From Amyelois transitella (Eukaryota > Arthropoda > Insecta > Lepidoptera > Pyralidae): a stretch of DNA of 64,000 bases. The position numbers were made by a program, and so were the translations under genes. The stretch lies in the NCBI RefSeq assembly GCF_032362555.1, contig NC_083506.1:1535501-1599500 (forward strand), read 5' to 3'. Every line of letters starts with the position of its first letter. The first letter of the stretch is position 1. The notes below the pieces were generated by a model, which saw only the letters and a list, made by a program, of their open reading frames with translations, had not been told where the DNA came from and did not search any database. Of the stretch, positions 130 to 52,961 are shown in pieces.

Positions 130-3100
130 AGATGAAAAACCTACACCACAAGACTGGGCCGAGCTGCTCAAAGATATTCTTGAATTACAATCGACACTGT
201 TAACTTGCGTCACTAAAGAAGAATGTTATGAGGTGTGTACTAGAATATAAGATTATAATTGAAATGATATTGAATTTCGTCTATGAAAACTTAGTACCAT
301 TATATGAGATTTCTTTAGTTTTTAAGTATGCAGAGATCGTGGCAAGTCGAAAGAGGTAGTCTCTGCCTACCCCTTCGGGAAAGAGGCGTGATCTTATGTA
401 TGTATGTATGTAGTTTTTACAGCAGAATTATGAAAAGGAAATTGGATCAAAAATATTTATTCTTCTGGCTTGTTCACTGGACTTCTGTAACACAGGCCTT
501 GCCTTCATCAGTCTCCAGTCTCTATCAATTGGTGTTGGTAACAACAATTTATTATATACCTATGTATTTTTCAGGTACGATTGTTGGTTGGGGGAAATAA
601 AAGATTTTTTACTTTAGTTTACTTTTATTTATATCAGCGCCGTGTGGTTCCCGGCACCAATACAAAAAAGAACGGGACCACTCCATCTCATTCCCATGGA
701 TTTCGTAATAGGCGACTGAGGTATAGGTTTACAAACTTAGTATTCTTTTTTAGGCGATGGGCCAGCAACCTGCCACTATTTGAATCTCAATTCTAACATT
801 AAGCCAAATAGCTGACCGTGGCCATTCAATTTTTTTAAGACTGGTGGCTCTGTCTACCCCGCAAGGGATATAGACGTGACCATATGTATGTATGTATTAT
901 TTCTATCTAAACCTAAATATCCTATGTCATTTTCTCATATACAATTCTAGATCTACGCGTCATCCCTGCTGACATCGGGCGATGCGAACAGTATTCGTTT
1001 AGCTGCCGATGTTCTCACGTGTAGTACTGATAACCGCGAGCCGAGGCGCAACGGCCCACAAGTCCCTTACGAGCGGAGCGTACAACTCGCGACAGCTGCT
1101 TCCAAGGAATACTTCAATTCTGCGTCTTCACTGTCCGACCCGGCCCTGGAACTCGCCAAGTAGGTGAATTTATATCGACAATGTCTTCTAGGGAAATGTC
1201 AGGTCAAGAGAACCGTGAACTTACGTACTCGCATGAGAAGACTGATAGATTTGAATGAAACAAAATAAGTAAGCGGGGATTGTTGCAAGTAGGAAGGTGT
1301 AGGCGCTCTCTGCCGGTCCAAAGAAGAGGGGTGTATTTATGTTAAACTATTCTATCGGTTAATGTACATATAGTTTTAATGACCGCGAGCCAAGGCGCAA
1401 CGGCCCACAAGTTTCTTACGAGCGGAGCGTGCAACTTGCGACAGCTGCTTCCAAGGAATACTTCAATTCTGCGTCTTCACTGTCCGACCCGGCCCTGGAA
1501 CTCGCCAAGTAAGTGAATTTATATCGACAATGTCTTCTAGGGAAGTATCAACTCGCATGAGAAGACTATTTGAATGAAGCAAAATAAGTAAGCAGGGATT
1601 GTTGCAAGTAGGAAGGTGTAGGCGCTCTCTGCCGGTCCGATGAAGAGGGGTGTATGATAGATGATTCTATCGGTTAATGTACATATAGTACTGATAACCG
1701 CGAGCCGAGGCGCAACGGCCCACAAGTTTCTTATGAGCGGAGCGTGCAACTTGCGACAGCTGCTTCCAAGGAATACTTCAATTCTGCTTCCTCACTGTCC
1801 GAACCTGCTCTGACACTTGCTTAGTTACTACAATTAAATTTATATCTCACACTTATAACTAGACTATACTACAACTTGATAAAATCGGGAATTTTTTTTT
1901 TGTAATAAATAAATAAATAAATAAATATATATGGGACAAATTACACTGATCGAGTTAGCCTCGAAGTAAGTTCGAAACTTGTGTTACGAGATACTAACTC
2001 AACGATACTATATTTTATAATAAATACTTATATAGATAAACATCCAAGACCCAGGCCAATTAGAAAAAGTTCTTTTCTCATCATGCCCTGACCGGGATTC
2101 GAACCCGGGACCTCCGGTGTCGCAGACAAGCGTACTACCGCTGAGCCACAGAGGCCGTCCATGTAATGTTAGGTACTTAAGGTTAAGGGGCCTGTACGAT
2201 ATAATTGGTGAATAAAATTTTTAGTTATTAAATTATTGTAAATAACTAGAGGCTGTCCGCGACTTCGTCCGCATGGAAACCCTATTAATCCCGCGGGAAC
2301 TCCGGGCTAAAAAGTAGCCTATGTGTTATTCTGGGTCTTCAGCTACCTACATACCAAATTTCATGGTAATCGGTTCAGTAGTTTTTGCGTGAAAGAGTAA
2401 CAAACATCCATACTGACATCCTGACATACTCACAAACTTTCACATTTATAATATGAATAGGATTGTCTGTCTGTTCGTCCGAGAAAGAGGCGTTATTTAA
2501 ACTATAAATTATAAAAATGAATAATTTTCAGATGCTGTTTGTCGCTCATAAAAGACGGGAATGCGGAAATAGAAGAAGAATTGGATCTCATTGCGGCGTT
2601 ACAAATATTGAACTCCTTCGAATTGACCCTACTCCCTATTCAAGGTAAGTAATATGTGTTTTTTTAGCACGTATTGTTAAATATCTGAACACTATCTTCA
2701 CCGTGTGGTTCGCGGCATCAATAGAAAGAAGAATAGACCAATCCATCTTTTCCCCATGGATGTCGTAAAAGGCGACTAAGGGATAGGCTTATAATCTTGG
2801 GATTCTTCTTCAATGCAATGGGCTGCGACCTATCAGTGTTTGAATCTCAATTCTATTATTTAGCCAAACAGCTGAACGTGGCCTATCGAGTCTTTTCAAG
2901 ACTGTTGGCTCTGTCTACCCCGCAAAGGATATAGGCGTGCTTAGATGTATGTACGTTATACACTATCAACTATCAATAGGTGTATAATAAAAAGTTATAT
3001 TTACTAAAACTAGTATACATAATTCCGATAGAGTCATTGGTACATGGCCGAGATAGGATGTAAACCTGTGTCTCCAGGCGCATAATTTACGCATTTTAGT

Positions 3101-6100
3101 CGTGCCACATAACTATTTGACCACCGACGCTCAAATGATTGTATTGTATTCTTATAGACACTGACGAAGCGTCTGGATAACTTCAAATCTATACTAATAT
3201 TATAAAGCAGAAGAGTTTGTTTGTTTGTTTGAACACGCTAATCTTAGAAACTACTGGTTCTAATTGAAAAAATATTTTTGCGTTGAATGGACCAATTATC
3301 TAGGAAGGCTTTAGGCTATATATCATCACGCTGCAACTATTAGGAGCGAAGAAGTAATGGAAAATGTGAAAAAAATCGGGGAGAATTATTTATCCTTGAG
3401 GGCTTCAATGATGCCACAAATAACTATTCCACGCGGACGAAGTCGTGGGCACATCTAGTTAGAAATATTAATATAACAATACATTATCTTGGTTCCAGTC
3501 CGTCTGTGCGAAGACAGAATGAGTTTGATAGAAGACTGTCTCAAGGCGGACTCGAACGCGTACCTCGCCAGTCACAAACTTTTGAAATTGGCAAAGTTGC
3601 TGAAAATCGCCGGCGATGATGAACAAACTCGGTGAGTGAACTTTCCATTTGATACAATATATCTTAAATAAAAAATAAAAATTATTGTTATATATAGGTT
3701 TATACGATATGTTTCTCGCATGTTTCTCGGGTTTCTCACCGACATTTATTTTACATAAATGTAAATATTAGTGTTTAAAAATCAAAAATGTATAAACCAT
3801 TGCTTTGTAGTTGTTTCACATAAATTTTTCATGTTTTTAAACGAAGTGACTCCCGTCTGTCCTCCGAGATCTTTGCAGAGGATATAAAGGATGCAAAGCA
3901 TATTGAATCATGGTAAAAGTTGCACTTAATTAATGTGTAATGATCAAACATGTGGCTCTGAAACCAGTGTTATGGCATTTTTTCCCATTTGAAATGGCAA
4001 TGCTGTCAGCCTTCTGGGCACACTCCCGCAAGTTGATGCTATTCAGGGACTGTACAATTTGTAAATAAAATTTTAATATGTTATCATCTTTTTTTACTTT
4101 GTAATCATTAAGTCGTTTAGATATTATATATTGTAAAGTATATGGCAATCATCAACTTCTATGTAGGGACTGTACAATTTCTAAATTTAATTTATATATA
4201 CATATGTATATGTAATAGTATGTAATCGTTTTTTTTTTATAAGTAAGTTTATTTTCATAAAGTTATTTAGATATTTTAATATTGTATACCTAGTTAGTTG
4301 ATGGCGATCATAATTTTAATTGCTATCTACACTGACGTTAGCCACCATATTCCCCCCCAGCGAGGGCCAAGTGCTGGTGCTGGTCGGGGAGTACGCGCTG
4401 CAGGCGGGGCGCGCGGGGCGGGGCGCGGCCGCCGACGCCGCGCACCGGCTGGCCGCGCTGCGGTACGCGCCCGCCGCCGACCTCATGGCCAGGGTCGCCG
4501 CCAGGTGATACACGAACAGATACATGTACATAACACCACACCGCTGGCCAGGGTCGCCGCCAGGTGATACACAAACAGATACATGTACATACTACTCTGT
4601 CAAGAAAGTAGCAGGAAAAGATCAATAATACACAAACTGTTTGTTATTCATCCAAATTTATTTTATCACCTTCAAAATATGCTCCTTTAGAAACGATACA
4701 CTTACGCCAACGAATAATCCAATCATCAAAACATTTTTTAAACGCTGTTTCCGGAATTGAGGTCAGTTCTCGCCGCGAATTCTCTTTTATGTCTTCTACC
4801 GATTGAAAACGGGTGCCACGAAGTGGTAATTTGAGTTTAGGAAAAAGAAAAAAGTCGGCTGGAGCCATATCTGGTGAATATGGTGGTTGCTCGATGGTAT
4901 TTGTTGAGTGTTTGGTTAAAAATTCGTTCACAATGATGGCCTTGTGCGAAGGTGCATTATCATGGTGCAAAATCCAAGAATTTTCTTTCCACAAATCTGG
5001 CCTTTTTCGTCGGATTTGCTCTCTTAAACGCCGCATAACACTCAAATAATATTCCTTATTTACCGTTTGACCTTCCGGCAAGAATTCCGAGTGCACAACA
5101 CCGCGATAGTCAAAGAAAACAGTCAACATGACTTTGACTTTTGAACGACTTTGGCGTGGTTTTTTCGGTTTCGGTTCAGTTGGAAGGCGCCACTCCGAAG
5201 CTTGTTGACTAGTTTGCATGTCAAACTCGTAAACCCACGTCTCGTCACCAGTAACAATGCGTTTCATGAATGTTGGGTCGGAATTGACTCGTTCTAGCAT
5301 GTCCTCAGCGACTCTCATGCGATTGAGTTTTTGAAAAAAATTCAGGTCTTTTGGGACTAGCCGAGCGGCAACATGTTTCATACCCAAATTATTAGTTAAA
5401 ATGGTACGGATCGACTCGTGAGATACAGAAAGTTCGGTGGCTATCTCTCTCAAAGTTGAATGAGGATTTTCAGTCACTATTTCCTTCACTTTTGCGATGT
5501 TAACTTCAGTTGCAGACGTTGATGGCCTACCAGAGCGAGGCAAATCTTCCATCACATCTCGACCGCTTTTGAACGCTTTGTACCACTCATAAGCACGAGT
5601 TTTTGATAAAGTCGATTCACCGTAAGCCTTCTGTAACATTTTCAGTGACTCCGAACACGATATTCCATTGGCAATGCAAAATTTAAGACAAACTCTTTGT
5701 TCGATGTTTTTATCCATTATGAAATTAGCAATACACACTAGATATGATATAACTAAAATTAGCACTGTATTTAATGTAAACAACAGATGCAACTCAAACT
5801 CCGCGCCAAAATGGAAAACAGTTGTGCCAATCTAACAACAACAAAAAAAACAAAAATTTGAATTTGGAACCATAAATAAATAATCCATTCCCGATACTTT
5901 TCTGACTGAATGTATAACATACACCGCTGGCCAGGGTCGCCGCCAGGTGATACACGAACTGCTGGACTGTCGCGGCCAGGTGATGATGATGACACGACTA
6001 GACACATGCACTAGATACATGTACCTATACTGCTTACTTGCTCTGCTTGCTGCTGCACTGAATTACTTGTCTACGGAGTGAGATACGGACGTCTGCCTCG

Positions 6101-9100
6101 AAAATTTCTCACGTTATACATACATACATATGGTCACGTCTATATCCCTTGCGGGATAGACAGAGCCAGTCTTGAAAAGACTGATAGGCCACGTTCAGCT
6201 ATTTGGCTGAATGATAGAATTGAGATTCAAATAGTGACAGGTCGATAGCCCATCGCCTAAAAAAGAATCCCAAGTTTGTAAGCCTATCCCTTAGTCGCTT
6301 TTTACGACATCCATGGGAAAGAGATGGAGTGGTCCTATTCTTTTTTTGTATGAGTGCCAGGAACCACACGGCACTCTCACGTTTATTATCACTCATGGCA
6401 TTACGAGTATTATCACTCATGGCCAAGGTGGTTCCGTAAATATTATACCGTAAGTTTACAAGGATATGAGTTACAGGCGTCCGTTGGCCCCCTGTTAAAA
6501 ATCAGTGACGATAGGAGGTTAATGTTATAAGTAATGTAGAACTAAAGGTTAACTAGAAATGACGTCCGCCCGCAAACAAACACCCGCTGATCTCATGGCC
6601 AGCGTCGCTGCCAGGTGCGTAGATAATTTGCATGTGTTACGAAAGTAGCGCGTTTCAATTTCTCTGTAGCGTGATTTGGTTCGCGGAAGCGATAAGCTTC
6701 GAAAACGACTTAACCGATTTCGATGGCCCACGAAGTCCAAAATTTTATTAGAAGATCCTTTATATGTTTTAAATTTGATCAAAATCAGACATACAGTTCG
6801 AACATCGCTTTAAAAACAATATGTACTTTATATAAATAATATACAAAAATTTGTGTTCGCTCCAAGTTGATTTGTATTTTACGGTTCGCGCGATTAATCA
6901 TCAATTAGTGTTCATGTTGAAAACTGTTGTAATGTTATCAGGGGCGGCACAGATCGCGCCTCAATCAGGAAGCTGCTGGCCGCGTCGGCTGCGCACGCGC
7001 CACCTGAAGCTATCGAGTTTGTGCTGCGCGGCAGGTAACATGGCTACTTGCAATGACCATTTACATATAGATGTATCTCGAAACTCTTTCACATTGATAT
7101 ATAGAGCCTCTGGTAATTATAATTCGGATGAACATCCCAGTAGCTAAATGTCAATCGACAAACGAAAGAGCAGCGTCAAAGAGATAGCCATAGATAAATT
7201 TATCACTAGATGGAGTAATACTATACAATCATCGCTTCAAAATGCGGGTAATGGTTTTTATTAAAACTGCTACGCGGTATCTAATGTGGTATTTATCTAA
7301 GACGTTAGTGGCTCATAACAGAAACGCTTTCGAGCGTTTGACATTTGGCTAAGGGCCTGGTGTTCAAAATCATGATAATCGTTCATATTTACAGAACTTC
7401 CTTCTTAAATAAAACAAATTGATTTTTGTATGAATTAATAAAATTATTACCCAAAAAAAGTTTGTCTGGTTACAAGGCCGTAAGACATTTTGATTTTAAC
7501 AGAGAGAGTGAGAAACATAGAAATCTGAATGAGTGTCAGATTTTATCCTCTCCTCACTGTCTTATCAAAACTCAAAAACTAGTATCACCACGACAAAATG
7601 GCGCCATTTTATCTTTTAGGTTGGAACTAGAACTTGAAGGCCTTTACCAAATGGGAGCCGCGCTGAAGGAGCAGGGTCGGCTGGAGGATCACCGGTGGCC
7701 GTCCACCGATGACGACTTCGCCGATGCCATCACCACGGTAATTTTGCAATGTTTTATGTGTTTATAAATCTCAATTCCATCATTGAGTCATAAAGCTGGA
7801 CATGCCCTTACAGTCTTTTGAAGACCTTTGGTTCTGTCTACTGAAGGCAGACGTGATTGTATGTATATGTGTATGTTTATCGTGGTATCTCATTTTCTTT
7901 CCATGACACATTCTCACATTCTTTCCATGAACAGACAAAATTATGCGTTTTTTGTGTATATGTATGTTTCAAATAATGATTACAGAGTATTCTTTGCTAT
8001 GTACAGTACCCCGACAAAATTTACATCACGAGTCATCTTGTTTATCTTTGAAGACTAAAATGGACTGATGCTAATTCAAATAGTATTTTTTTTATACCAA
8101 CCGACGTATTCCAATCTTTTACTTTGTAGTAACATTTAATTTGTCTTTGAAAAATATAATAATTAATTAGGCCGTGTTTGTTACAGCCTATCATCGAGAA
8201 AAAAGATTTGGTAGCTCCTGATGAGCCGGAGAAGAAGCCTCTGTTCAATTATTTGCTCGATACATTCCAAAGCAAGTTCTATCAAAGGTAATATCTTAAA
8301 TATATACGGTAAGTATAGTAGATGGTTTTTATAGGACAAGTTTATAGCTAGTAGCGAATCACACTTTCTTTCTATAATGTTAGTGAGCTGTAAAATTTGC
8401 TATGTCTTTACTGGTTTCTTATTTTTTGGCGCTTTATTTAAGTTACAATAAGTTTGCTTCTTTTTTTCTAACTACCTTCCTTATCTGATCAATCGCTAAT
8501 CAGCTGGATTATTTCGCATATACTTGTCTAGGCATTGTAATTAAAACTTAACTCTTTATTTCAGCGAAAACAAGAGCTCAAGCCCAGACCAGACCGAGCG
8601 TTCAGTTCACGTGCAAGAATTCTACCGCTCATTATACCCGTCCCACGACGTTTCCACTTCGTACTATGGCTACGATCGGTTCTCGATCCCCGACAGCGGC
8701 GACGCGAGTTCTGGCCACGCCGCGCTCAAGTGGTACTACATCCAGAACTGTCTAGAAGACGGTGAATACGCTCAGGACGAAATTGAAGGTAATTGAGTCA
8801 ATGTTGGACATATTTCTCCCCAGAACTTCACGTGACGTTTCAACTTCTTACTACGGCTACGATCGGTTCTCGATCCCCGACAGCGGCGACGCGAGTTCGG
8901 GTCACGCCGCGCTCAAGTGGTACTACATCCAGAACTGTCTGGAAGACGGTGAATACGCTCAGGATGAAATTGAAGGTAATTGAGTCAATGTTGGACATAT
9001 TTCTCCCATAGAGCTTCACGTGACGTTTCAACTTCTTACTACGGCTACGGTCGGTTCTCGATTCCCGACAGCGGCGCTGCGAGTTCGGGTCACGCCGCGC

Positions 9101-12100
9101 TCAAGTGGTACTACATCCAGAACTGTCTGGAAGACGGTGAATACGCTCAGGACGAAATTGAAGGTAATTGAGTCAATGTTGGACATATTTCTCCCTAGAG
9201 CTTCACGTGATGTTTCAACTTTTTACTACGGCTACGATCGGTTCTCGATCCCCGACAGCGGCGACGCGAGTTCTGGCCACGCCGCGCTCAAGTGGTACTA
9301 CATCCAGAACTGTCTGGAAGACGGTGAATACGCTCAGGATGAAATTGAAGGTAATTGAGTCAATGTTGGACATATTTCTCCCATAGAGCTTCACGTGACG
9401 TTTCAACTTCTTACTACGGCTACGGTCGGTTCTCGATTCCCGACAGCGGCGCTGCGAGTTCGGGTCACGCCGCGCTCAAGTGGTACTACATCCAGAACTG
9501 TCTAGAAGACGGTGAATACGCTCAGGACGAAATTGAAGGTAATTGAGTCAATGTTGGACATATTTCTCCCTAGAGCTTCACGTGATGTTTCAACTTCTTA
9601 CTACGGCTACGGTCGGTTCTTGATCCCCGACAGCGGCGACGCGAGTACTCACCACGCCGCCTTCAAATGGTACATTGGTTGTAATGAAAAAAGAACTGAA
9701 TTGAGTGCTCTGGCAAACGAAAAAGACTTTGAACCAACTAAGAGTGTTATATAAATGATTTCCTCCTCCTGGCTTTTGTCTCGATTACATCCTCATCACT
9801 CAGGAGAGGAGCGCGGTGTATGCTTTTTACTATAAATCCTGGATTGGGACAGTTTTTTACAAGAAGCGACTGTCATCTAACCTCCGTAACCTTTGCAGAT
9901 AAACCTAACCCGTATTGGATTGGAAACCTAAACATTCAGGCAACTTGTTTCCTCAAGATGCTTAGCCTCACCGTAAGAACATCATGTTAGATAAATGATT
10001 AGTGGTACTTCAAAGAGAAAGTCTCACTTACTTTTTAACCCTTTTTGTATTAATGATTGAACATTACCTCCACAGTGGTCCAAAAGTGCGCCGAGGAGTT
10101 GCTGTACAAGGACACCCCTCTGAGCATTGCGTGCCTGCTGCGCAGCGCTCAGACGCCGGCCGCCATGAGCGCGCTGGTGACGTCACAGCAGCCGGCCGCC
10201 GCCGCGCTGTACGCCGCGCTGGTGCGCTGCAACGCGCCCGAGCTCCGCGACTACGTGTACCTCGCGAGGCCGGCCGAGGTGATGTAGCACGTGCAGCAGT
10301 TACAGCTCAGCGTGACGTCACAGCAGCCGGCCGCTGGTGCGCTGCAACGCGCCCGAGCTCCGCGACTACGTGTACCTCGCGAGGCCGGCCGAGGTGATGT
10401 AGCACGTGCAGCAGTTACAGCTCAGCGTGACGTCACAGCAGCCGGCCGCTGGTGCGCTGCAACGCGCCCGAGCTCCGCGACTACGTGTACCTCGCGAGGC
10501 CGGCCGAGGTGATGTAGCACGTGCAGCAGTTACAGCTCAGCGTGACGTCACAGCAGCCGGCCGCTGGTGCGCTGCAACGCGCCCGAGCTCCGCGACTACG
10601 TGTACCTCGCGAGGCCGGCCGAGGTGATGTAGCACGTGCAGCAGTTACAGCTCAGCGTGACGTCACAGCAGCCGGCCGCTGGTGCGCTGCAACGCGCCCG
10701 AGCTCCGCGACTACGTGTACCTCGCGAGGCCGGCCGAGGTGATGTAGCACGTGCAGCAGTTACAGCTCAGCGTGACGTCACTAACACCTGACCGTCATCA
10801 TTCGAATGGTTTCCATCTAGCTCTGTTGGAGGCGACTTGCATCTAACGTTTCTCCCCAGATTTCACCAGGTCATCAGTCCATCTCGAGTGAGAAAAAAAT
10901 CTGAGTAAAGTTAAAATGTTGTGAACGGAGTGTGTTTTCATCGGAACCTTTGAAGGAGAGTGACAGTTTTACAGAGAGTTCCGGTGCGCGAGAAAGCTGT
11001 TTAAAAACATTGCTAGAAAAAGTTGGCTTATATACTTGGGATTCTTTTTTTAGACGATGGGCTTGTAACCTGTCACTATTGGAATCTCAATTCTATCATT
11101 AAGACAACCAGCTGAAAGTAGCCTTTCAGTCTTTAGGAAGACTGTTGTCTCTGTCTACCCCGCAAGGGATATAGAAGTGATTGTATGTATATATTCCTAT
11201 TCAACAGATGGCGCGCACTACCCTAAAAGAGAAGAACGCTTCAGAAGAACAAATGGAAGTGATAAAGCAATGTATAGCGCGGCTCAGTGGCATGGGGGAG
11301 GTAGACCGGCTGCGGAGACTCGGGTTCCAAGTCAACGGACTGCTGTACAACGCTGACGAGGACTATCGAAACGAGATGATTTACAGGGTCGCTAGGTATA
11401 CGTTTTGTATAGTGATACTCTTTAAATTGTACTCTTTTATTGTTGAAGAGGAAGGCTAAGGCGATCATACCTTGATTAAATCCGGTACGTCCTGGTGGAA
11501 GTTCAGGTTGAGAGTACCCTTAACCGACGAGCTACATGAAGAGATTTGTGAATTTAGTTGAATCGAAAGAAGTATGCAGGGATCACAGTCCTTTGCCACG
11601 GCAAGTCTATGCCTACCTCTCCAGTAAAGGAGAGTGATTTTATGTCATATACTCTTTTACTTATATGAGAGCGTCGGTGGTCGAATCGGTAAGGTGTCTG
11701 GTTAAAAATGCGTGTGACGCAAAAAGGTACAGGTTTGAATCCCACCTCGGCCATACATACTCGTAGTTTTGAAAATAGTCATTCATTAGTTTAAATACTA
11801 ACCAATGCTCTAACGGTGAGGGATAAAATCGCGAGGAAACTTGTACATTCAAGCAACTGGATGTGTAACTATCTGTCTACCCCGCAAGGGATATAGACGT
11901 GATTATATGTATGTATGTATGCAATTTAAAATGCTGTCAGTGTCATGGGCACCTTACCTTCCCATCATTAACGATTCGGGGCGGACTTATTGACAAATGA
12001 TATATTGACATTTTATTGTTTTATGTTTAACAAATTTTATTAATATTGATATATAGTATATACATTTAAAGAATTAATTCAATTACAAGATGTATTTTAT

Positions 12101-18100: not shown

Positions 18101-19864
18101 TACACCAATCTAGTATGATTGATATTTTACTATGCTTATAATTACAGTAACGGTAAAAGTATTCAGTACGAGCATCTGGAGTCTCTGCTTAAGAATCCAG
18201 CCGAGCAGAAACAGAACTTGGTGCTCATCAAGCTTTTGCTTACAAGTCCCGTGCTCACTGATGAGGTAACTCACTACTACTGGATTTAGAATGATTTAAC
18301 GAGAATCCATCTCAAGAAACATAGTTCTCACCAACGACTTCATATCAAGTGGTTTGCTGCTGTGAAAATTACGAAACAAAATGTCGAACAAGTAAATAGG
18401 ACCGCTCTATCACTTTTTTTGGATGTTTTAAGAGGCGACTAAAGTACCGCCAACTGATTGACAGGCGACTCTCGCCTGAAATCCTACTACTATTATAAAG
18501 GCGAAAGTTTGTATGGATGTTTGTTACTCTTTCACGCAAAAACTACTAAACCGATTACCATGAAATTTGGTATGTAGGTAGCTGAAGACCCAGAATAACA
18601 CATAGGCTACTTTTTATCCCAGAGTTCCCGCGGGATTGATAGGGTTTCCATGCGGACGAAGTCGCGGGCGGCCTCACTACTATTATAAAGGCGAAAGTTT
18701 GTATGGATGTTTGTTACTCTTTCACGCAAAAACTACTGAACCGATTACCATGAAATTTGGTATGTAGGTAGCTGAAGACCCAGAATAACACATAGGCTAC
18801 TTTTTATCCCAGAGTTCCCGCGGGATTGATAGGGTTTCCATGCGGACGAAGTCGCGGGCGGCCTCTAGTAAAGAATAAGAAAGCTGTCACGAAGGATTGG
18901 GAGGAGTATATGGAACCTGTAATCCGTTTCAAAAATAACAAAACTGAGTGAAAATTTAAGACTTCACCTGATTGTCTCTTGTTTTTCTAAACCTCATTTC
19001 ATATTGTGTTATTTTACATTATAGGAGGTGAAGTCATTGTCAGAAAAGGCTACTTCAGATTCGATCATCAACGTTCTTTGGATAATCCTGTTGAACAAAG
19101 GAGACAATATGCAGGAGATGGTCTTGAATTTGCTGCAACAACACAAGGTTTTCAATTATAGAAATTTTTTTTAATGTTTTTATATTCGAAATGTTTTAAA
19201 TTTTTGTTCTGTGTTATGTGATCGTGTTGCTCTTGTAAACGGAATATTTATGGAAGACATAAATAAAGAGTCACGTCAAGATTACTTATTAAGCCATACA
19301 GAACATGACATTTGAGTTTTTTCGAGGCTGTTGGCTCTTTTTACCCCGTGGGATGAACGTGACGGAGAACATGACATTTGAGTTTTTTCGTGGCTGTTGG
19401 CTCTTTTTACCCCGTGGAGTGAACGAGACGTGATTATCTGTACGTATATTCAAAGAATCATTCAATTTTTGTATTTTCCTTAACAATTCCTAGCTGCAAA
19501 ACTTTTCATTTATTTTTTTTATATCAAAAAAAAGACTTCTTTTTACTGGTATTTAATTTTGTTCCAGGATAAAAAACAGAAGCAAGAAATGGACGACGAA
19601 CTCATTAAAGAGTTATTAGACAGCGGAATGTTTATGAAACTAGTTTCCACACCGGTATACTGTTCCATCATCAGCTACATCATAACGCATGCTGGGGATC
19701 CTGAACCGAACCCATACACCGTAGAATGGGCCACTAGTCAACTACTCAACGCTAACTACTTAGCCGAAGCGGGTCATCTTAACCTCCTATCTATTGGCGT
19801 GCCCTCGGCTTTGCGCGGCTTCACACAATCTATACTGTATTGCAAAAATATGCTTCAAAACTAA
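130..19864 (+). CDS. NBAS: NBAS (neuroblastoma-amplified sequence) homologue, C-terminal half, 23 exons
   Basis: NBAS (NAG) is the large Sec39-domain subunit of the ER tether it forms with ZW10 and RINT1, which captures Golgi-derived COPI vesicles; NBAS is also reported as an NMD factor. Exons read: 130-232, 951-1159, 2532-2644, 3499-3631, 4361-4504, 6942-7034, 7620-7737, 8187-8287, 8565-8788, 10076-10278, 11208-11395, 12123-12293, 12971-13131, 13831-14012, 14400-14533, 14953-15042, 15587-15715, 16076-16255, 16621-16877, 17483-17609, 18148-18265, 19025-19147, 19568-19864 (stop TAA). All have GT-AG borders and matching phases, giving 1,198 codons plus stop; the 5' half lies outside the window. 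The exon at 12971 carries the Sec39-like stretch HIKLLKKAKAAS. The identification rests on recalled family similarity, not a search. Odd: four exons (951, 4361, 8565, 10076) are followed by tandem copies of their own 3' ends with splice donors. Exon 16621 is very GC-rich (alanine/proline run). Confidence 0.85.
639..896 (+). repeat. Interspersed repeat A (~260 bp), full copy
   Basis: Starts CCGTGTGGTTCCCGGCACC, contains CATGGATTTCGTAA and GGGATATAGACGTGA, and ends in a TATG repeat. The commonest repeat here. Other near-full copies: 2698-2955 (+), 6117-6376 (-), 12701-12930 (-), 14650-14908 (+), 16910-17165 (-), 33220-33525 (+, with insert), 50499-50732 (-), 51868-52138 (+), 59044-59305 (+). 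Confidence 0.88.
1029..1825 (+). repeat. Triplicated 3' end of NBAS exon 951-1159
   Basis: The last ~130 nt of the exon recur at about 1378-1508 and 1693-1823, offset 349 and 315 bp. Copies 1 and 2 include the donor (GTAGGT in the real exon, GTAAGT in copy 2) and following intron, which holds a worn LINE 3' tail (about 1199-1340, 1540-1655). Copies 2 and 3 lack the exon's acceptor and first ~75 nt, so they are not complete alternative exons. Copy 3 has lost the donor. Reading past the donor gives TAG at once. Confidence 0.9.
1903..2159 (-). mobile_element. tRNA-headed SINE, full length
   Basis: On the minus strand it starts GACGGCCTCTGTGGCTCAG with an A box (TGGCTCAGCGGTAGTACGC) and B box (GGTTCGAATCCCGG), and ends in an ATTT repeat tail. 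Nearly identical to the copy at 43691. Confidence 0.88.
3189..3460 (+). mobile_element. Lep1-like non-autonomous Helitron
   Basis: Begins CTATACTAATATTATAAAG and ends with ACGAAGTCGTGGGC and CTAGTT. Other copies: 2244-2463 (-), 15266-15466 (+), 22348-22819 (+), 23112-23370 (-, different subfamily), 41906-42177 (-). Confidence 0.8.
4592..5914 (-). mobile_element. mariner (DD34D) element with intact transposase
   Basis: A 1,323-bp element in an NBAS intron, flanked by a duplicated TA (4590-4591 and 5915-5916). The boundaries are fixed by comparing the interrupted tandem repeat with its neighbours. The ends are imperfect inverted repeats (CTACTCTGTCAAGAAAGTAG on the left; about 25 bp alignable with several mismatches). 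Confidence 0.88.
4644..5717 (-). CDS. mariner transposase, 357 aa, uninterrupted
   Basis: Cut-and-paste transposase of the Tc1/mariner superfamily. I place the start at 5717 (MDKNIEQ), not at the upstream in-frame ATG at 5792, because the extra 25 residues are hydrophobic and unlike the family. The N-terminal ~110 residues are the paired helix-turn-helix DNA-binding part. The catalytic triad is visible: GDETW (Asp ~158), HDNAPSH (Asp ~253) and PDMAPAD (Asp ~288), with 34 residues between the second and third, the DD34D signature. The VPKDL stretch near 121 matches the family linker. No stop or frameshift was found in 357 codons, which is near the usual mariner length (~345-355). It reads opposite to its host gene. 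Sound catalytic residues suggest recent arrival, but the ends are poorly matched, so activity is uncertain. Confidence 0.92.
   Translation of the reverse strand: MDKNIEQRVCLKFCIANGISCSESLKMLQKAYGESTLSKTRAYEWYKAFKSGRDVMEDLPRSGRPSTSATEVNIAKVKEIVTENPHSTLREIATELSVSHESIRTILTNNLGMKHVAARLVPKDLNFFQKLNRMRVAEDMLERVNSDPTFMKRIVTGDETWVYEFDMQTSQQASEWRLPTEPKPKKPRQSRSKVKVMLTVFFDYRGVVHSEFLPEGQTVNKEYYLSVMRRLREQIRRKRPDLWKENSWILHHDNAPSHKAIIVNEFLTKHSTNTIEQPPYSPDMAPADFFLFPKLKLPLRGTRFQSVEDIKENSRRELTSIPETAFKKCFDDWIIRWRKCIVSKGAYFEGDKINLDE
8640..9700 (+). repeat. Six-copy tandem array of NBAS exon 8565-8788 end (187/188-bp unit)
   Basis: Donors GAAG/GTAATTG stand at 8789, 8976, 9164, 9351 and 9539, spacings 187, 188, 187, 188. 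A sixth copy (9570-9700) diverges and lacks the donor. Only the first copy has the true upstream exon. Copies 3 and 5 share variants (an Ala codon for Asp, an A-to-G, a C-to-T) absent from 2 and 4, so the higher-order unit is a 375-bp dimer. Units are joined by ~35 nt that begin with the donor and end in an AG (CCCAG, CATAG or CTAG). Confidence 0.92.
9765..9985 (+). repeat. SINE-like repeat (CCTGGATTGGG family)
   Basis: Diverged copy following the exon array. Other copies: 20627-20822 (+), 33025-33150 (+), 52170-52330 (-), 56655-56935 (-), 62868-63058 (+). Marks are ATCCTGGATTGGG, TCTGACCT, ACACATTCAG and TTTCCTCA. Confidence 0.65.
10164..10790 (+). repeat. 115-bp tandem array of NBAS exon 10076-10278 end
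   Basis: The exon end with its donor (GCCGAG/GTGATGTAG) recurs exactly every 115 bp; the GATGTAG mark is at 10281, 10396, 10511, 10626 and 10741. Intron copies are close to identical to each other. They differ from the exon by missing a stretch around codons GCC GCC GCG CTG TAC, so they derive from one deleted copy and then spread. Each donor is followed in frame by TAG. Confidence 0.93.
11665..11880 (+). mobile_element. Second tRNA-headed SINE family, copy 1
   Basis: Head GGTGGTCGAATCGGTAAGGT with a B box GGTTTGAATCCCACC, then a tail (CGGTGAGGG, GAGGAAAC) shared with another SINE-like repeat family in the window. Confidence 0.75.
14352..14378. repeat. TA microsatellite
   Basis: An uninterrupted-looking run of TA/AT in the NBAS intron before 14400. 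Also a CAAA repeat at 57147-57170 directly beside the alpha-arrestin exon 5 donor. Confidence 0.8.
15120..15262 (+). mobile_element. tRNA-headed SINE, diverged
   Basis: Contains a CAATGGTAGTACTC A-box relic, the B-box-like GGGTTCAGATCCCGG and the family body GAGAAAAGAAC; a Lep1-like element follows directly. A further tail fragment, minus strand, is at about 14262-14350. Confidence 0.75.
18484..18869 (+). mobile_element. Tandem pair of Lep1-like Helitron copies
   Basis: Two almost identical copies, 190 bp apart (CTACTATTATAAAG at 18487 and 18677), each ending GACGAAGTCGCGGGCGGCCT; the second ends CTCTAGTA. Confidence 0.85.
19299..19435. repeat. Two-copy ~71-bp tandem repeat in the last NBAS intron
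   Basis: GAACATGACATTTGAG starts each copy and CCCCGTGG lies near each end; six or so differences between copies. Confidence 0.8.
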
Positions 19865-28200: not shown

Positions 28201-31200
28201 CAACAGCCCACACCAATCGCGATCACAATCAAAGGCAAGAAGTACGTGACAGCCGAGACAGACAACATCGAGATATCCATCACGGACCTACTCCAGCGGC
28301 CCGTCAAGGGCCTGAAACCGGAGGACGTCATCGCCCAATCAGGCACCCGATTAGCTGACGACGTGGTTGTGTTATCCAAACAGCCACTAACCCAGAGAGA
28401 TGCAACCACATTCGTGCTGAATCTGAACAAGATCAAGTCTCAATACGGTTTATATAAAATTGCTTTAAGTGCTGGGAGTAAAACTGCCAGTTTGAACGTA
28501 GCGGTGCTTGGTGAGATTCAAGTGACGAATTGTGAAGTGGGTTTGGGAGATGTTGATGGCACCACGAGCCCGAAGATCACTAATGTGCCGTATCCGGAAG
28601 AGTTACTAGATGAACTGCAGGCGGATCATATGCAAAAGTAAGTTTCTTTATTTACTAGCGACTCGCCCCGGCTTCGCATTGATAGCATTCTATAAAATTA
28701 TGATTTATTAAATGCTACTCGTATTAATGATAAATTTCATAAAAACTTTCCATTTTATAATATATAATGTCCTATGTTAGAATGCGGGTTGTTAGTTAAC
28801 AATACGTTACAAACGTATAGTTAAACGCACACAAAATTTCATTCGAATCGGTACATCAGTTTAGCTGCGGAAAGCGGAACAGACAGACAGACTTTAGCAT
28901 TTATAAATATATGAGTAAAGGATGAACAATTTTAATGTGTCATCATCAAGGCGACATTGTTCGCGTGGAATTGTTGAAAGTTAAACACAATCAAAATCCG
29001 TTGCATAATTTTAAAGATTTAAGCATACAGACAAACAGACTGAAATAGCGACTTTGTTTTATACTATGTAGTAATAGTGAAGTAGGATATTATGGAACCT
29101 TAATGTTCTCCATCCAGGCTGTCGCTGAAGTTCACGGTGCGGGATAGACAGAGCAAGCCGGTGTCGGTGCAGCAGGCGTTCGTGCGCGTCGGGGACCGCG
29201 GGCGCGAGGCCGTGTTCGTGGCGGAGCCCGACAACGCGAAGGCCTACAGGGTCGAGCTGGTGAGACTCCTTTAATTGTGTTGTGATGTTTATTTATACTA
29301 TTAATAGAGAGAAAAGATTTTGGATTTTTGAGTTTATTCATTAGAATAAACTAAAAAAAATATTGGACTGATTTTTTATATAACGAAATTTTGATATAGA
29401 ATAGATCTTTGAGAGTGAAATAAGGATTTTTTTGTTGAAATTCGAATATAGTGAAGAATCGCGTAAAAGCTTGTTTCTTATAAAATTGACTTTTTAGCAT
29501 CATGGAAAAACTTCAAGGGATGAGCATTTGGCAATAGAAACGGGCCAAGTGGCTGTTCCCTACCCAGAATAAGTCCATTCTACGAAATCTGTGGACCGAC
29601 CTAAGAATTCCGAAAAAAGAAACTTGAAATTTTTTTTATACCAAAGAACCCTAAACGGCTGAAATGTTATTTCGGCCATTTTCCTAAGTTACGACTGCTA
29701 TTCAATGCTGGTTGATGATTTATCAATGTGGAAAAACATCGTCAAGATACCTTCAGGCTGCCTGACTGGGTTTTCCTTGTTATGATTTGCTTTCAGTAAT
29801 TACCTGATTTACCAATTCCTTGATAATTGATTATAGATCGGTCTCTGGGCTTTTCCCTAGTGGAACACAGAAGGGCAAAGATCAATAGAATAATATAAAA
29901 ATCAATCTTTATTATAATTTTTATACCAGAATGTGGGCGCCATCGGCAAGCATCTAGGTCATCAATCAGGCGCCTATCAGGTCAGCATCTTCCTCGGAGA
30001 CAGCGCTGTGTCCAACCCCATAGCCTGGGACCTCGGGGAGATCCACTTCAAGTTCGAGAAGGAACCCACTGCCGTCGGTGAGTAGTGTATTAATTTTCCA
30101 AAGTTACTAAAATAATTTCAAATTTATACTTGACCTTGGCCAGAAATTTAACAGATATATCAATGAGGGCTATAGTAGAACCGCCTAAATGAGTCCTCGC
30201 CCGCGGAGTACAGGGGCGCGGGGGTATGACGACGAAGGGGAACGAAAGAGGTGCGGGCGGCGGTCGAGCGTAGCGTGTAATACAAGGGGCGAAATGTTAC
30301 TGGACATTTCTTGAGATATGTGACGTCATAGTGGTTAGCGGCAAACAGGTGAAGATTTTTATTAAAAAAATAATAATGGCTATACAAAATTTGAATGAAA
30401 CAACTGTAAACTATACAACGTGTTCCTTTTGTTATCCCATAACTCCATGGTATCAACGAGACCACGTACATGAATTAAATAGCATAAGCATTTTTCGATT
30501 ATTGTTATTTTCAAATTTTTATTTTTCATACAAAACAATTCGATAAAAATGTGATTTTATGATATATAGGTATGATATGTAGGTAAAAAAAAGGTAATAA
30601 AGTTATGTATGTAATATTTATTTATGCAAAATTTATCAAAATTATAAATCAATCACTTATGTCCATAATATCACTATCACTGGAACTTGATTCTTCACTT
30701 TCACAACAGCCATCATCAGAATCATCAGAATCGTCTTGCACATTAATAATAAAATCAACAACTTCATCTAGGACTCCATCATGTTTGCAATATTCGTCTT
30801 CGATTTTAATCACGTGTTTAACACAATTCTCCCATTTCTCTTTGGGATATTCAGCAAATAATCTCTCTAATATTTCTTTTTTCTGGTCCAAATTAGAGTC
30901 GATACTTTTTTGTGCTAATTGTCCTTTGATATCACCCCAGACCAACTCAATTGGGTTCAGGTCTGGGTGATATGGAGGCAAACGCAATACTTCGTGTCCG
31001 TTTCTTTTCAATACCTCGTCAATTTTGTAAATATCTTCTGTGAAATTACTTTTAATTAATTTATATAAGTCATCCTTTCTAAGTTTTTCATCAAAAGGCA
31101 CGTTATGTCGTCGTAGCCATTCTTGCATAGTTGGCTTGGTAGAAGCCATAGTTGGCTTTTTCTCTTCTCGAACCGAATGATAAGCTGCGTTGTCCATTAC

Positions 31201-33699
31201 TATGACAGAATTTTGCGGTATATTAGGCATGAGCTTTTCATTTATCCATTTACTGAAATTTGCGAAATTCATAGAATCGTGATAATCACCTGTTTTACAT
31301 TTGGATTTGAATATCACAAGGGCTCCGTCTACAAATCCAATTTGACCTCCACAATGTACGATGATCAAACGGTCCCCTTTACCAATATGAGATAGAACGC
31401 CAAGTTCATCCTTTGATTGCCAACATTTTGAAACGTTATGAGACGCGTTTACATAAGTTTCGTCAAGGTATAAAATATGTCTTCCTTCTCTACGATATTT
31501 TTTAATAGTATTTAGGTATTTCCACCTCCACGATGTGATATTTGGCTGTTCGATAAGGAGTTTCCTTCTAGATCCGCATTTCTTAAATTTAAAACCTAGA
31601 TCATGTAATAATAGCCTTAAATATTCCCTGCCGCAGTGTAATATATTCTCTTCTCTAAGTACAGCGTTCAAAGTTTTCAGAGTAGGTATTTTTTTGAAAA
31701 TTGTGTAAAACTGAGTGACTTTTCTTCTTACCACTCCTTTTGTGAAATCGTCTATTTCCACTCTTTTTCTACGAACCTGTTTTGGTTTTCTCGGTGATTT
31801 AAATCTCTCGTTGTCATTTAATGCTTTCCCTTGTTGTACAATTCTAGATACAGTCTTTTCTGATAGTCCAGTAACTTCTGCTACAGTTTTATTTAAAGGT
31901 ATATCTTGTTTATATTCATCAGAATTTGGGTCGAGTTTCTTTTTTCTAAAATATTCATATACGTTAAACGCCATTTGTTTGCACTGACTATTAATTCTAT
32001 GTCCGAAAATATTTCGACTCATCTTGAGAATGTAATCTCATGTATAATTTTCACAAGGCGTCCGCAACTGTCAACACGTGTGATCGCTAACCGCGTAGCG
32101 AGCGAACTGAGTTTTTACAAGAATGCGCCCGCCGCCCGCACCTCTCTCGGTCCCCTTCGTCGTCATACCCCCGCGCCCCTGTACTCCGCGGGCGAGGACT
32201 CATTTAGGCGGTTCTACTATAGTAAGCAACACCAAATAGTTATGTCAAGTTCAATATTAGTGATGTGATTTGACAATAGTGCTTTATTGTAAAAAAATAG
32301 ACTATGCCTACCACCCCTCCGGGGAAAAGGCGTGATTTAATGTGTGTTTAAACAGACTTGTTATAGAAGATACGTAATAAAAGGAAACAAAAGCAAGACA
32401 GATTATTTAATAGTGATGGGTTATGCTTATGTTTGTACAAATATTGTCAGCTAAATATTTTAAATTTACTTTTTAAGCCGCACTATGGTGAAATATATCC
32501 TATATTTCCTATGAAACTTAAGATTGAACATTTGTCTAGGACATAGGCTACTTTATTCATAATTCTTATAAAATGGACTTTTTTAGCATCATGGAAAAAC
32601 CTCAAAGGACTACGGAACGGGTTTTTATTAACTCGGGCGAAGCCTTTGAATCTGAATCCCTTGCAAAACATAATTTTAAAATTTTTATGTATCCCACAGC
32701 AGCCCGCTCCCCGGCCGGGCCGCTGCCGGAGATCCGGCACCAGTTCCGCGAGGCGTCGCCGCGGCCGGCGCGCGCCGTGTCGGACGTGTTCGCGGCGGCG
32801 TGCGCGGCGCCGCTCGCGCTGCTGCTGCTGCTGTGGGCGCGGCTCGGCATCAACTTCGGCAACTTCCCGCTCACTCTCAGCGCGCTCGTGTTCCATTTGT
32901 CGCTTGGAGGTGAGCTGTTGAGATATTTGTTAATGGACATATTTTTACTCGTGTCTTTTGTTTACAGAGGTGAATTCTATATTAAAAACAAAGACGGAAA
33001 GTAAAAATTTAAAACTTTTTCTAGTCCTGATTACATCTTGACCTCAGCACAATTTTTACACGAAACGAATCAACTATAAACCTCCGTATGAGAAACCTAA
33101 TCCATATTGGTTCATGATTATCCAGTTGCCCGTATTGAATTAGTACTTAAAGGTAAAAATCGGTCTTTCATCCCGTCTGAGAGATGAAGACGCAACTAAC
33201 GCCCAGAATGTAGGAATGTGGTTCCCGGCACCAATACAAAAAAGAATAGGACCACTCCATCTCTTTCCCATGGATGTCGTAAAAGGCGACTAAGGGATAG
33301 GCTTAGGCTATAGATCTATGTAAAACATGTGTACCACAATAAAGATGATTTGATTTGATTACATACTTGGGATTCATTTTTAGGCGATGTACTAGCAACC
33401 TGTCACGATTTGAATCTCAATTCTATCATTAAGCCAAATAGCTGAACGCGGCCATTCAGCCTTTTCAAGACTGTTGGCTCTGTCTACCCCGCAAAGGATA
33501 TAGACGTGACCATACGTATGTGTCCTCTTTATAAATGTTTTGGTAACGCCCCGCAGCGTCGCTATCGCTGTACGGCGTGTTCTGGCTGCGGCTGACGATG
33601 TTCGACACGGTGCGCTACCTGCTGCCGCTGGCCGCGCTCAGCTTCCTGTCCGGCCACCGGCTGCTGCGGCGGCTCGTGCGCGACAAGCAGTCGCGCTAG
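25237..33699 (+). CDS. RPN2: Ribophorin II (oligosaccharyltransferase delta subunit)
   Basis: ER-membrane subunit of the oligosaccharyltransferase that N-glycosylates nascent proteins. Exons: 25237-25249, 25607-25791, 26354-26622, 26981-27142, 27613-27760, 28207-28637, 29118-29259, 29930-30077, 32700-32909, 33557-33699 (TAG), 616 aa, near family length. The first coding exon is only 13 nt (MHFY plus one base); joined to exon 2 it makes a signal peptide (MHFYGLLLFAVSLLAFSNA). A long lumenal part follows. Three hydrophobic segments end the protein (a leucine run in exon 32700, one across the last junction, and YLLPLAALSFLSG), then a short basic tail LLRRLVRDKQSR. Polyadenylation signal AATAAA at 33708-33713. 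The exon at 32700 is strongly GC-rich. The intron 30078-32699 holds a complete DNA transposon and that at 25792-26353 a MITE. Confidence 0.93.
25856..26208. mobile_element. Tigger/pogo-type MITE (353 bp)
   Basis: The ends are inverted repeats (CAGTAGAGCGTCGATTATCC on the left and CAGTGGAGCGTCGATTATCC as the complement on the right), start with CAGT and are flanked by TA (25854-25855, 26209-26210), as in pogo-like elements. It has no coding capacity and contains a perfect hairpin at 26003-26056. It lies in a ribophorin II intron. Confidence 0.88.
26003..26056. repeat. Perfect hairpin, 25-bp arms, 4-nt loop
   Basis: Left arm 26003-26027 begins CTGCTAGGCGTTAAT; loop GTTT; right arm 26032-26056 is its exact complement. 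Confidence 0.97.
30173..32219 (-). mobile_element. Complete IS630-Tc1-mariner element with long terminal inverted repeats
   Basis: A 2,047-bp element in a ribophorin II intron, flanked by TA (30171-30172, 32220-32221). Its ends are inverted repeats of about 89 bp: the outer 69 match perfectly, with two mismatches further in. They begin TAGTAGAACCGCC and are GC-rich, unlike the AT-rich interior. It carries one uninterrupted transposase gene. Matched ends, target duplication and open frame point to a young insertion. Confidence 0.93.
30649..32022 (-). CDS. Tc1/mariner-superfamily transposase, 457 aa, DDE with 81-residue spacing
   Basis: Predicted cut-and-paste transposase. Residues ~15-70 form a helix-turn-helix (VAEVTGLSEKTVSRIV) and ~80-140 a second DNA-binding part preceded by a basic patch (RKPKQVRRKRVEID). 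Catalytic acids: LYLDETY (Asp ~187), VIVMDNAAYHS (Asp ~277) and PDLNPIELVW (Glu ~359). There are 81 residues between the last two, against 34-41 in Tc1 and mariner; the insert (about 284-345) reads like a second small domain with EWLRRHNVPFDEKLRKDDL. The last ~30 residues are an acidic, serine-rich tail. From memory, long-spacing groups (named DD82E/Sailor) have been reported and this may belong there. Start chosen at 32022, the first ATG, just inside the left-hand repeat relative to transcription. No stops or frameshifts. Confidence 0.9.
   Translation of the reverse strand: MSRNIFGHRINSQCKQMAFNVYEYFRKKKLDPNSDEYKQDIPLNKTVAEVTGLSEKTVSRIVQQGKALNDNERFKSPRKPKQVRRKRVEIDDFTKGVVRRKVTQFYTIFKKIPTLKTLNAVLREENILHCGREYLRLLLHDLGFKFKKCGSRRKLLIEQPNITSWRWKYLNTIKKYRREGRHILYLDETYVNASHNVSKCWQSKDELGVLSHIGKGDRLIIVHCGGQIGFVDGALVIFKSKCKTGDYHDSMNFANFSKWINEKLMPNIPQNSVIVMDNAAYHSVREEKKPTMASTKPTMQEWLRRHNVPFDEKLRKDDLYKLIKSNFTEDIYKIDEVLKRNGHEVLRLPPYHPDLNPIELVWGDIKGQLAQKSIDSNLDQKKEILERLFAEYPKEKWENCVKHVIKIEDEYCKHDGVLDEVVDFIINVQDDSDDSDDGCCESEESSSSDSDIMDISD
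33310..33361 (+). repeat. LINE 3' tail inserted in repeat A
   Basis: A short stretch ending AATAAAGATGATTTGATTTG interrupts the repeat A copy at 33220-33525. A related tail, minus strand, is at about 58097-58260, where it also follows TTTATTG and a GATTT repeat. Confidence 0.65.

Positions 33700-40802: not shown

Positions 40803-52961
<12,159 letters not shown>

Follow-up and report, generated by a model that had tools for sequence, protein, structure and literature searches.

Tandem copies of exon ends and splice donors downstream of exons in NBAS and other genes of Amyelois transitella

The stretch of the Amyelois transitella genome analysed here (64,000 nucleotides of contig NC_083506.1, positions 1,535,501 to 1,599,500; hereafter the window, numbered from 1) contains the later part of the gene NBAS, four exons of which, ending at 1159, 4504, 8788 and 10278, are each followed by a tandem array that repeats the 3′ end of the exon, its splice donor and the adjoining intron. 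In a sample of 204 introns such copies follow the donor in 13 cases and precede the acceptor in one. The best explanation, to which we assign a probability of about 0.6 on the strength of sequence comparison, is that small tandem duplications recur in this genome and are filtered by selection, as splicing would take the first donor that it meets.

NBAS lies on the plus strand and extends from ∼12.1 kb ahead of the window as far as position 19864. Its 42 exons were placed by reading the sequence and cross-checked with a simple gene finder. In this predicted exon model, use of the 5′-most donor in each array yields a single open frame of 2,204 codons. The identification of the gene as NBAS in a preliminary description of the window is borne out by a match to the Nbas_N profile over residues 1–1,150 (E 3.2e-38). 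The name rests on this N-terminal domain, as a 601-amino-acid piece further along matched no Pfam family. A search of the genome (327 Mb, 33 contigs) placed the N-terminal domain at one locus among the matches reported.

In each array the first exon copy, which has an intact frame in the exon model, was taken as the functional one (all features are on the plus strand unless stated; a slash marks the splice site). Exon 21 (951–1159, donor CAA/GTAGGT) is followed by a second copy of its 3′ end with the donor GTAAGT (1371–1550, +212 to +391 after the donor, 93% identity) and by a third copy that has lost the donor (1686–1820, +527 to +661, 90% identity); the two intact donors are 349 bp apart and the donorless copy lies 315 bp further. 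Exon 24 (4361–4504, donor CAG/GTGATA) has a second end with donor at 4545–4591 (+41 to +87, 98% identity), a third at 5928–5959 (+1424 to +1455, 100% over 32 bp) and a diverged fourth copy at 6584–6617 (88% identity). The first two of its three intact donors are 59 bp apart, while the third is situated beyond a mariner insertion, represented by an uninterrupted mariner-type transposase frame (Transposase_1, 382 amino acids from a TTG) on the minus strand at 4644–5792, between copies 2 and 3. The location of this frame between copies of the array indicates that the array probably predates the insertion.

The array of exon 28 (8565–8788, donor AAG/GTAATT) occupies 8647–9673, with its first unit inside the exon, and contains five intact donors spaced by 187, 188, 187 and 188 bp. 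A 375-bp dimer fits this array better than the monomer does (96% vs 94% matches), which, together with the alternating spacing, suggests that the array may have been shaped by exchange of dimers. At 9584–9754 the last, partial 187-bp unit continues into an open frame that terminates with a TAA at 9752–9754. Derivation of this diverged end copy from an NBAS paralogue elsewhere was considered and rejected, as neither the copy nor its tail had a reported match outside the locus; of the four arrays, this search covered the end copy of exon 28. In exon 29 (10076–10278, donor GAG/GTGATG) the repeated unit is 115 bp and is present in 4.9 copies (10217–10781), which are 100% identical to one another and carry five intact donors at a spacing of 115 bp. 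A 10-bp palindrome, GTGACGTCAC, is common to the exon source and to the intronic end of this array, and its presence at both sites fits a homology-mediated tandem duplication. The 115-bp unit lacks 20 bp of exon 29, and we infer that the order of events may have been duplication, deletion and then amplification. The preliminary description had reported four exon-end arrays with these spacings, in which every unit begins within its exon and includes the donor, so that up to five intact donors stand in a row, and in these respects it was accurate. Its argument that the copies differ by distinct substitutions stands except for the 115-bp array, which it does not cover.

The association between exon ends and downstream copies was compared with chance across the whole of NBAS. 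For every exon, the end (up to 120 bp, with 25 bp of intron) was aligned against the following intron and the start against the preceding intron. On the donor side 6 of the 41 exon ends have a copy in the following intron, with scores of 50–280 (83–280 for the four in the window). No copies of exon starts were found in the preceding introns (0/41, scores up to 28), and the antisense control likewise did not exceed 28. Mismatched NBAS exon–intron pairs scored at most 32, excluding three pairs equal to array-derived values (38, 61 and 86). The two additional positive exons are upstream of the window: one, ending at −871, has a single downstream copy (94% identity), and the other, ending at −7823, has old copies of 84% and 73% identity. 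The phenomenon is thus not restricted to four exons, as initially described. Over all cases in the survey, copy identities span 100% to ∼73%.

The survey was extended to 314 kb, comprising the window with 200-kb flanks, 40 kb of contig 17 (a dynein heavy-chain region) and 10 kb of contig 19 (SNF2), after masking of repeats. These three contigs provided the 204 introns, including those of NBAS; exon models outside NBAS were taken from the simple gene finder. With the 120-bp query, donor-side copies were present in 12/204 introns and acceptor-side copies in 1/204 (Fisher p 0.003), the former being distributed as 6/41 in NBAS, 5/97 in the rest of contig 2, 1/53 in contig 17 and 0/13 in contig 19. 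The thirteenth donor-side case, C17:3917943, scored 32 with this query, below the threshold, but passed with a 250-bp query, for which the acceptor-side count remained at 1/204. In the control for the longer query, 4,710 mismatched pairs reached a maximum of 38, attained by 0.02% of them (∼1 in five thousand). The lone acceptor-side case is a minus-strand prediction that lies antisense within the donor array of the GSAP gene, and is probably not a gene. Introns bearing exon copies also occur in an SMC_N gene, in GSAP, in the dynein heavy-chain region and in an SNF2-type gene, showing that the arrays are not, as first supposed, a peculiarity of one gene, while the bias towards donors that had been raised is upheld by these counts. 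The share of introns with donor-side copies is nevertheless higher in NBAS (6/41) than elsewhere (6/163; p 0.017). Outside the counts, a stretch of contig 3, chosen as a candidate for its two overlapping SNF2 profile hits, contains two exons with decayed downstream copies. With this case excepted, overlapping profile hits were discarded as a whole-genome proxy, being too ambiguous without the sequence itself.

These data lead to the following model. Small local tandem duplications, with units of ∼60–350 bp in NBAS, would recur in the genes of this genome. Those spanning the 3′ end of an exon and its donor would persist, because the first (5′-most) donor is used and the whole second copy leaves with the intron. 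Duplications spanning an acceptor, by contrast, would place a copied acceptor and an incomplete exon upstream of the genuine acceptor, leading to mis-splicing, and would be purged. The surviving copies would be functionless and decay freely, some having been amplified into arrays by unequal exchange and one array having been hit by a mariner element. Use of the first donor is inferred from the intact frame, and selection would be the cause of the asymmetry. When translation is continued past the first donor, a stop codon follows at +4 to +9 nt in all but one of the six NBAS cases, the exception having its stop at +123, and splicing at a downstream donor would therefore carry a cost.

The mismatches between exons and their copies bear on the fate of the copies. 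By simple equal-rate reasoning, about 1/3 of these should fall at third codon positions if they reflect sequence errors or a dead gene, and about 1/2 if a constrained exon is compared with a freely decaying copy. Across eight events, one copy each, 50/101 mismatches are at third positions (p 0.0006 against 1/3, p 1.0 against 1/2); all listed copies of the same events give 91/180, in which the copies are not independent. The pool consists of a hand-picked copy for each of the 8/13 events with a single open frame; exons 19, 24 and 29, C2:1625679 and C17:3917943 were dropped as having more than one. For exon 8 the copy at +482 (9/22) was pooled instead of that at +170 (2/5), and for exon 21 the copy at +212 (4/9) instead of that at +527 (10/13). 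A share close to 1/2 indicates that the first copy looks like a working exon and that the other copies have not been kept, and thus speaks against both an assembly error and a function of the copies. The proposal that the third-position bias marks the copies as formerly coding was rejected, as the pooled share fits a functional exon paired with a neutral copy. Among the older copies the donor GT, read by eye, is lost in some and kept in others.

Several observations weigh against a selection-filtered origin, or against the data on which it is built. In the first copy of exon 28 all mismatches (7/7) are at third positions, a more one-sided distribution than 1/2. The aligned copy crosses the donor in 9/13 donor-side cases, but in the other four no aligned copy is shown to reach it. 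In C2:1622298 the alignment is to the exon interior and stops at −19, short of the donor; C2:1651271 has a 26-bp match to the exon interior, and the match in C17:3931923 is also internal; C17:3917943 was not recovered in the copy alignment, where it was hidden by the masking of self-matches, although, judged by eye, its copy extends to the end of the exon. (Alignment rows at +31 to +60 with identity 1.000, and those at +31 to +53 for exon 29, are trivial matches of the query to itself and were ignored.) Exon models outside NBAS, moreover, rest on a simple gene finder. In potato, a duplicated intron–exon stretch that included the acceptor was retained and became an additional intron and exon (PMC4974935); loss of acceptor-side copies is therefore not without exception in other organisms. 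Finally, if duplications were tolerated equally, intron-only repeats should outnumber donor-side repeats, but the reverse was found, as follows.

Local direct repeats (at least 85% identity over at least 40 bp, dispersed repeats masked) form 13 clusters in the 314 kb, and eight of these were counted as exon-end arrays, five by script and three by hand. Those assigned by hand are the exon 24 array, the GSAP array and an intronic repeat of 62 bp immediately downstream of exon 8. Zones around the tested donors constitute 10.6% of the unmasked sequence, and the exon-end share of clusters is in excess of this whether all eight are included (8/13, binomial p 1.3e-5), the intronic exon 8 cluster is omitted (7/13, p 1.4e-4) or only the five script-assigned clusters are retained (p 0.008). 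The cluster C2:1479947-1482647 was not counted; it includes two predicted minus-strand donors, but the best repeat within it measures 42 bp, with copies ∼2.7 kb apart. Among 1,289 intron-only windows, located away from donors, 46 have a copy further down, most of which fall in donor arrays or in large repeats at C2:1608331 and C2:1610861. Manual grouping left ∼9 separate intron-only repeats, two in NBAS and ∼7 elsewhere, including those two loci. The locus C2:1610861-1611694 (from coordinate 75361 in the numbering of the window, beyond its end) consists of a 120-bp array of 6.7 copies, each with the sequence CTCCG/GTAACT, upstream of a likely coding exon; read by eye, the unit is possibly a 5′ untranslated exon with its donor.

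The donor-side excess over intron-only repeats implies that tolerance alone is insufficient and that some mutational preference would be needed. The strongest competitor takes this further, in proposing that exon–donor junctions are mutational hotspots, through transcription or splicing, or through the GC-rich DNA of exons, with selection removing acceptor-side copies only. The cluster proportions favour this proposal, as do the donor-side copies in 12/204 introns set against ∼9 intron-only repeats among 1,289 windows. Exon ends that bear arrays also have a higher GC content (0.57 vs 0.51, p 0.004), and these exons are of greater length (p 0.006; both for 13 vs 191 introns). Against it, the sample is small, and exon–copy pairs remain detectable for longer than intron–intron pairs because one side is conserved, an effect that helps but hardly suffices to account for the donor excess. 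We regard such a hotspot as a tentative and rather unlikely account. Its widest form would be a lineage-wide hotspot, in which duplication is coupled to transcription or splicing across the genome and is continuous. Several per cent of introns would then open with fossil exon-end copies, the one-sidedness of which would measure how far the 5′-most site wins at donors and acceptors; this, too, we hold to be doubtful.

It is improbable that the arrays of NBAS and other genes are kept for a function, be it as backup donors, as poison exons or in regulated unproductive splicing. The intact donors, up to five in a row, the stops close behind them and the acceptor-like pyrimidine-AG sequences in the exon 28 units are features that such a role might use, and the simple gene finder read some array units as exons. 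The donors of array-bearing exons are, however, not weaker than others (p 0.34; 13 vs 191 introns), on which ground compensation for weak donors was rejected, and two exon 28 units taken as full exons are 152 nt each, such that inclusion of one shifts the frame. The loss of GT from some older copies and the mismatch pattern expected of neutral copies point in the same direction. Assembly artefact, for example haplotypes joined end to end, is very improbable; the complete identity of the 115-bp copies would fit it, but it is at odds with the codon-structured mismatches, the mariner within one array, the widely variable divergence and the same donor-side polarity in other genes and on other contigs. 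It is equally far-fetched that local repeats are as common anywhere and happen to lie near several NBAS exons, as the 5/13 clusters located elsewhere and the two intron-only repeats of NBAS might hint, given the donor/acceptor imbalance and the cluster statistics above.

Partial, donor-polarized duplication differs from several established processes. In tandem exon duplication, including mutually exclusive exons, exon sequence is repeated downstream in the same gene. In NBAS, by contrast, the copies are of partial exons, mostly the 3′ end and donor. No copy including the start of its exon and the acceptor was seen among the 41 (0/41), and the 152-nt units do not preserve the frame. Internal gene duplication is commonly observed (Gao and Lynch 2009, as cited in PMC4974935 and PMC3443670). 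NBAS likewise contains at least two similar segments within one gene, and its recent arrays repeat the exon end and the following intron in register, while in the old copies the intronic portion has mostly become unrecognizable. The difference is in the donor-side polarity, the extension to five units and the involvement of 6/41 introns; the available passages of those papers do not mention polarity. Intron gain by tandem duplication is also established, as described in PMC3443670, PMC4974935 and PMC2891723, and shares with the present case a short tandem duplication involving splice-site sequence. Here, in the predicted model, the copies sit in existing introns, the frame is intact and no added intron is needed. 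Introners (PMC9860276) are repeated sequences bearing splice sites within introns. The copies described here adjoin their source exon, and a genome search with the exon 28 unit (best candidates scored) reported six matches, all within its own exon or array. The occurrence of the same sequence in many unrelated introns, as in introners, was addressed by this search for one of the arrays. A literature search, for which subscription papers were mostly out of reach, returned no report of donor-biased exon-end arrays.

The donor/acceptor asymmetry provides a natural experiment in the choice of splice sites. In the sample, copies of donors have survived and copies of acceptors have not, which is the outcome anticipated if splicing uses whichever site it is offered first. 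The decaying copies also retain earlier states of the exon sequence. Should donor ends turn out to be mutational hotspots, this would suggest a duplication mechanism linked to gene expression. More practically, annotation pipelines can be misled by arrays of this type, as the exon calls of the gene finder demonstrate.

Other repeats and mobile elements are present in the window. A 190-bp element occurs in two tandem copies at 18486–18865 (99% matches) and, reversed, at ∼2250–2460; the pair represents a dispersed repeat that was recently duplicated in tandem. At ∼30170–32220 a DDE_3 transposase frame (30649–32022, minus strand, 457 amino acids) lies between inverted ends that match at 88/90 bases; by reading, this element sits between exons of a neighbouring gene. 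The region 46000–48000 displays strong strand asymmetry (GC skew −0.37) and, also by reading, resembles what is left, in antisense, of the reverse transcriptase of a retroelement.

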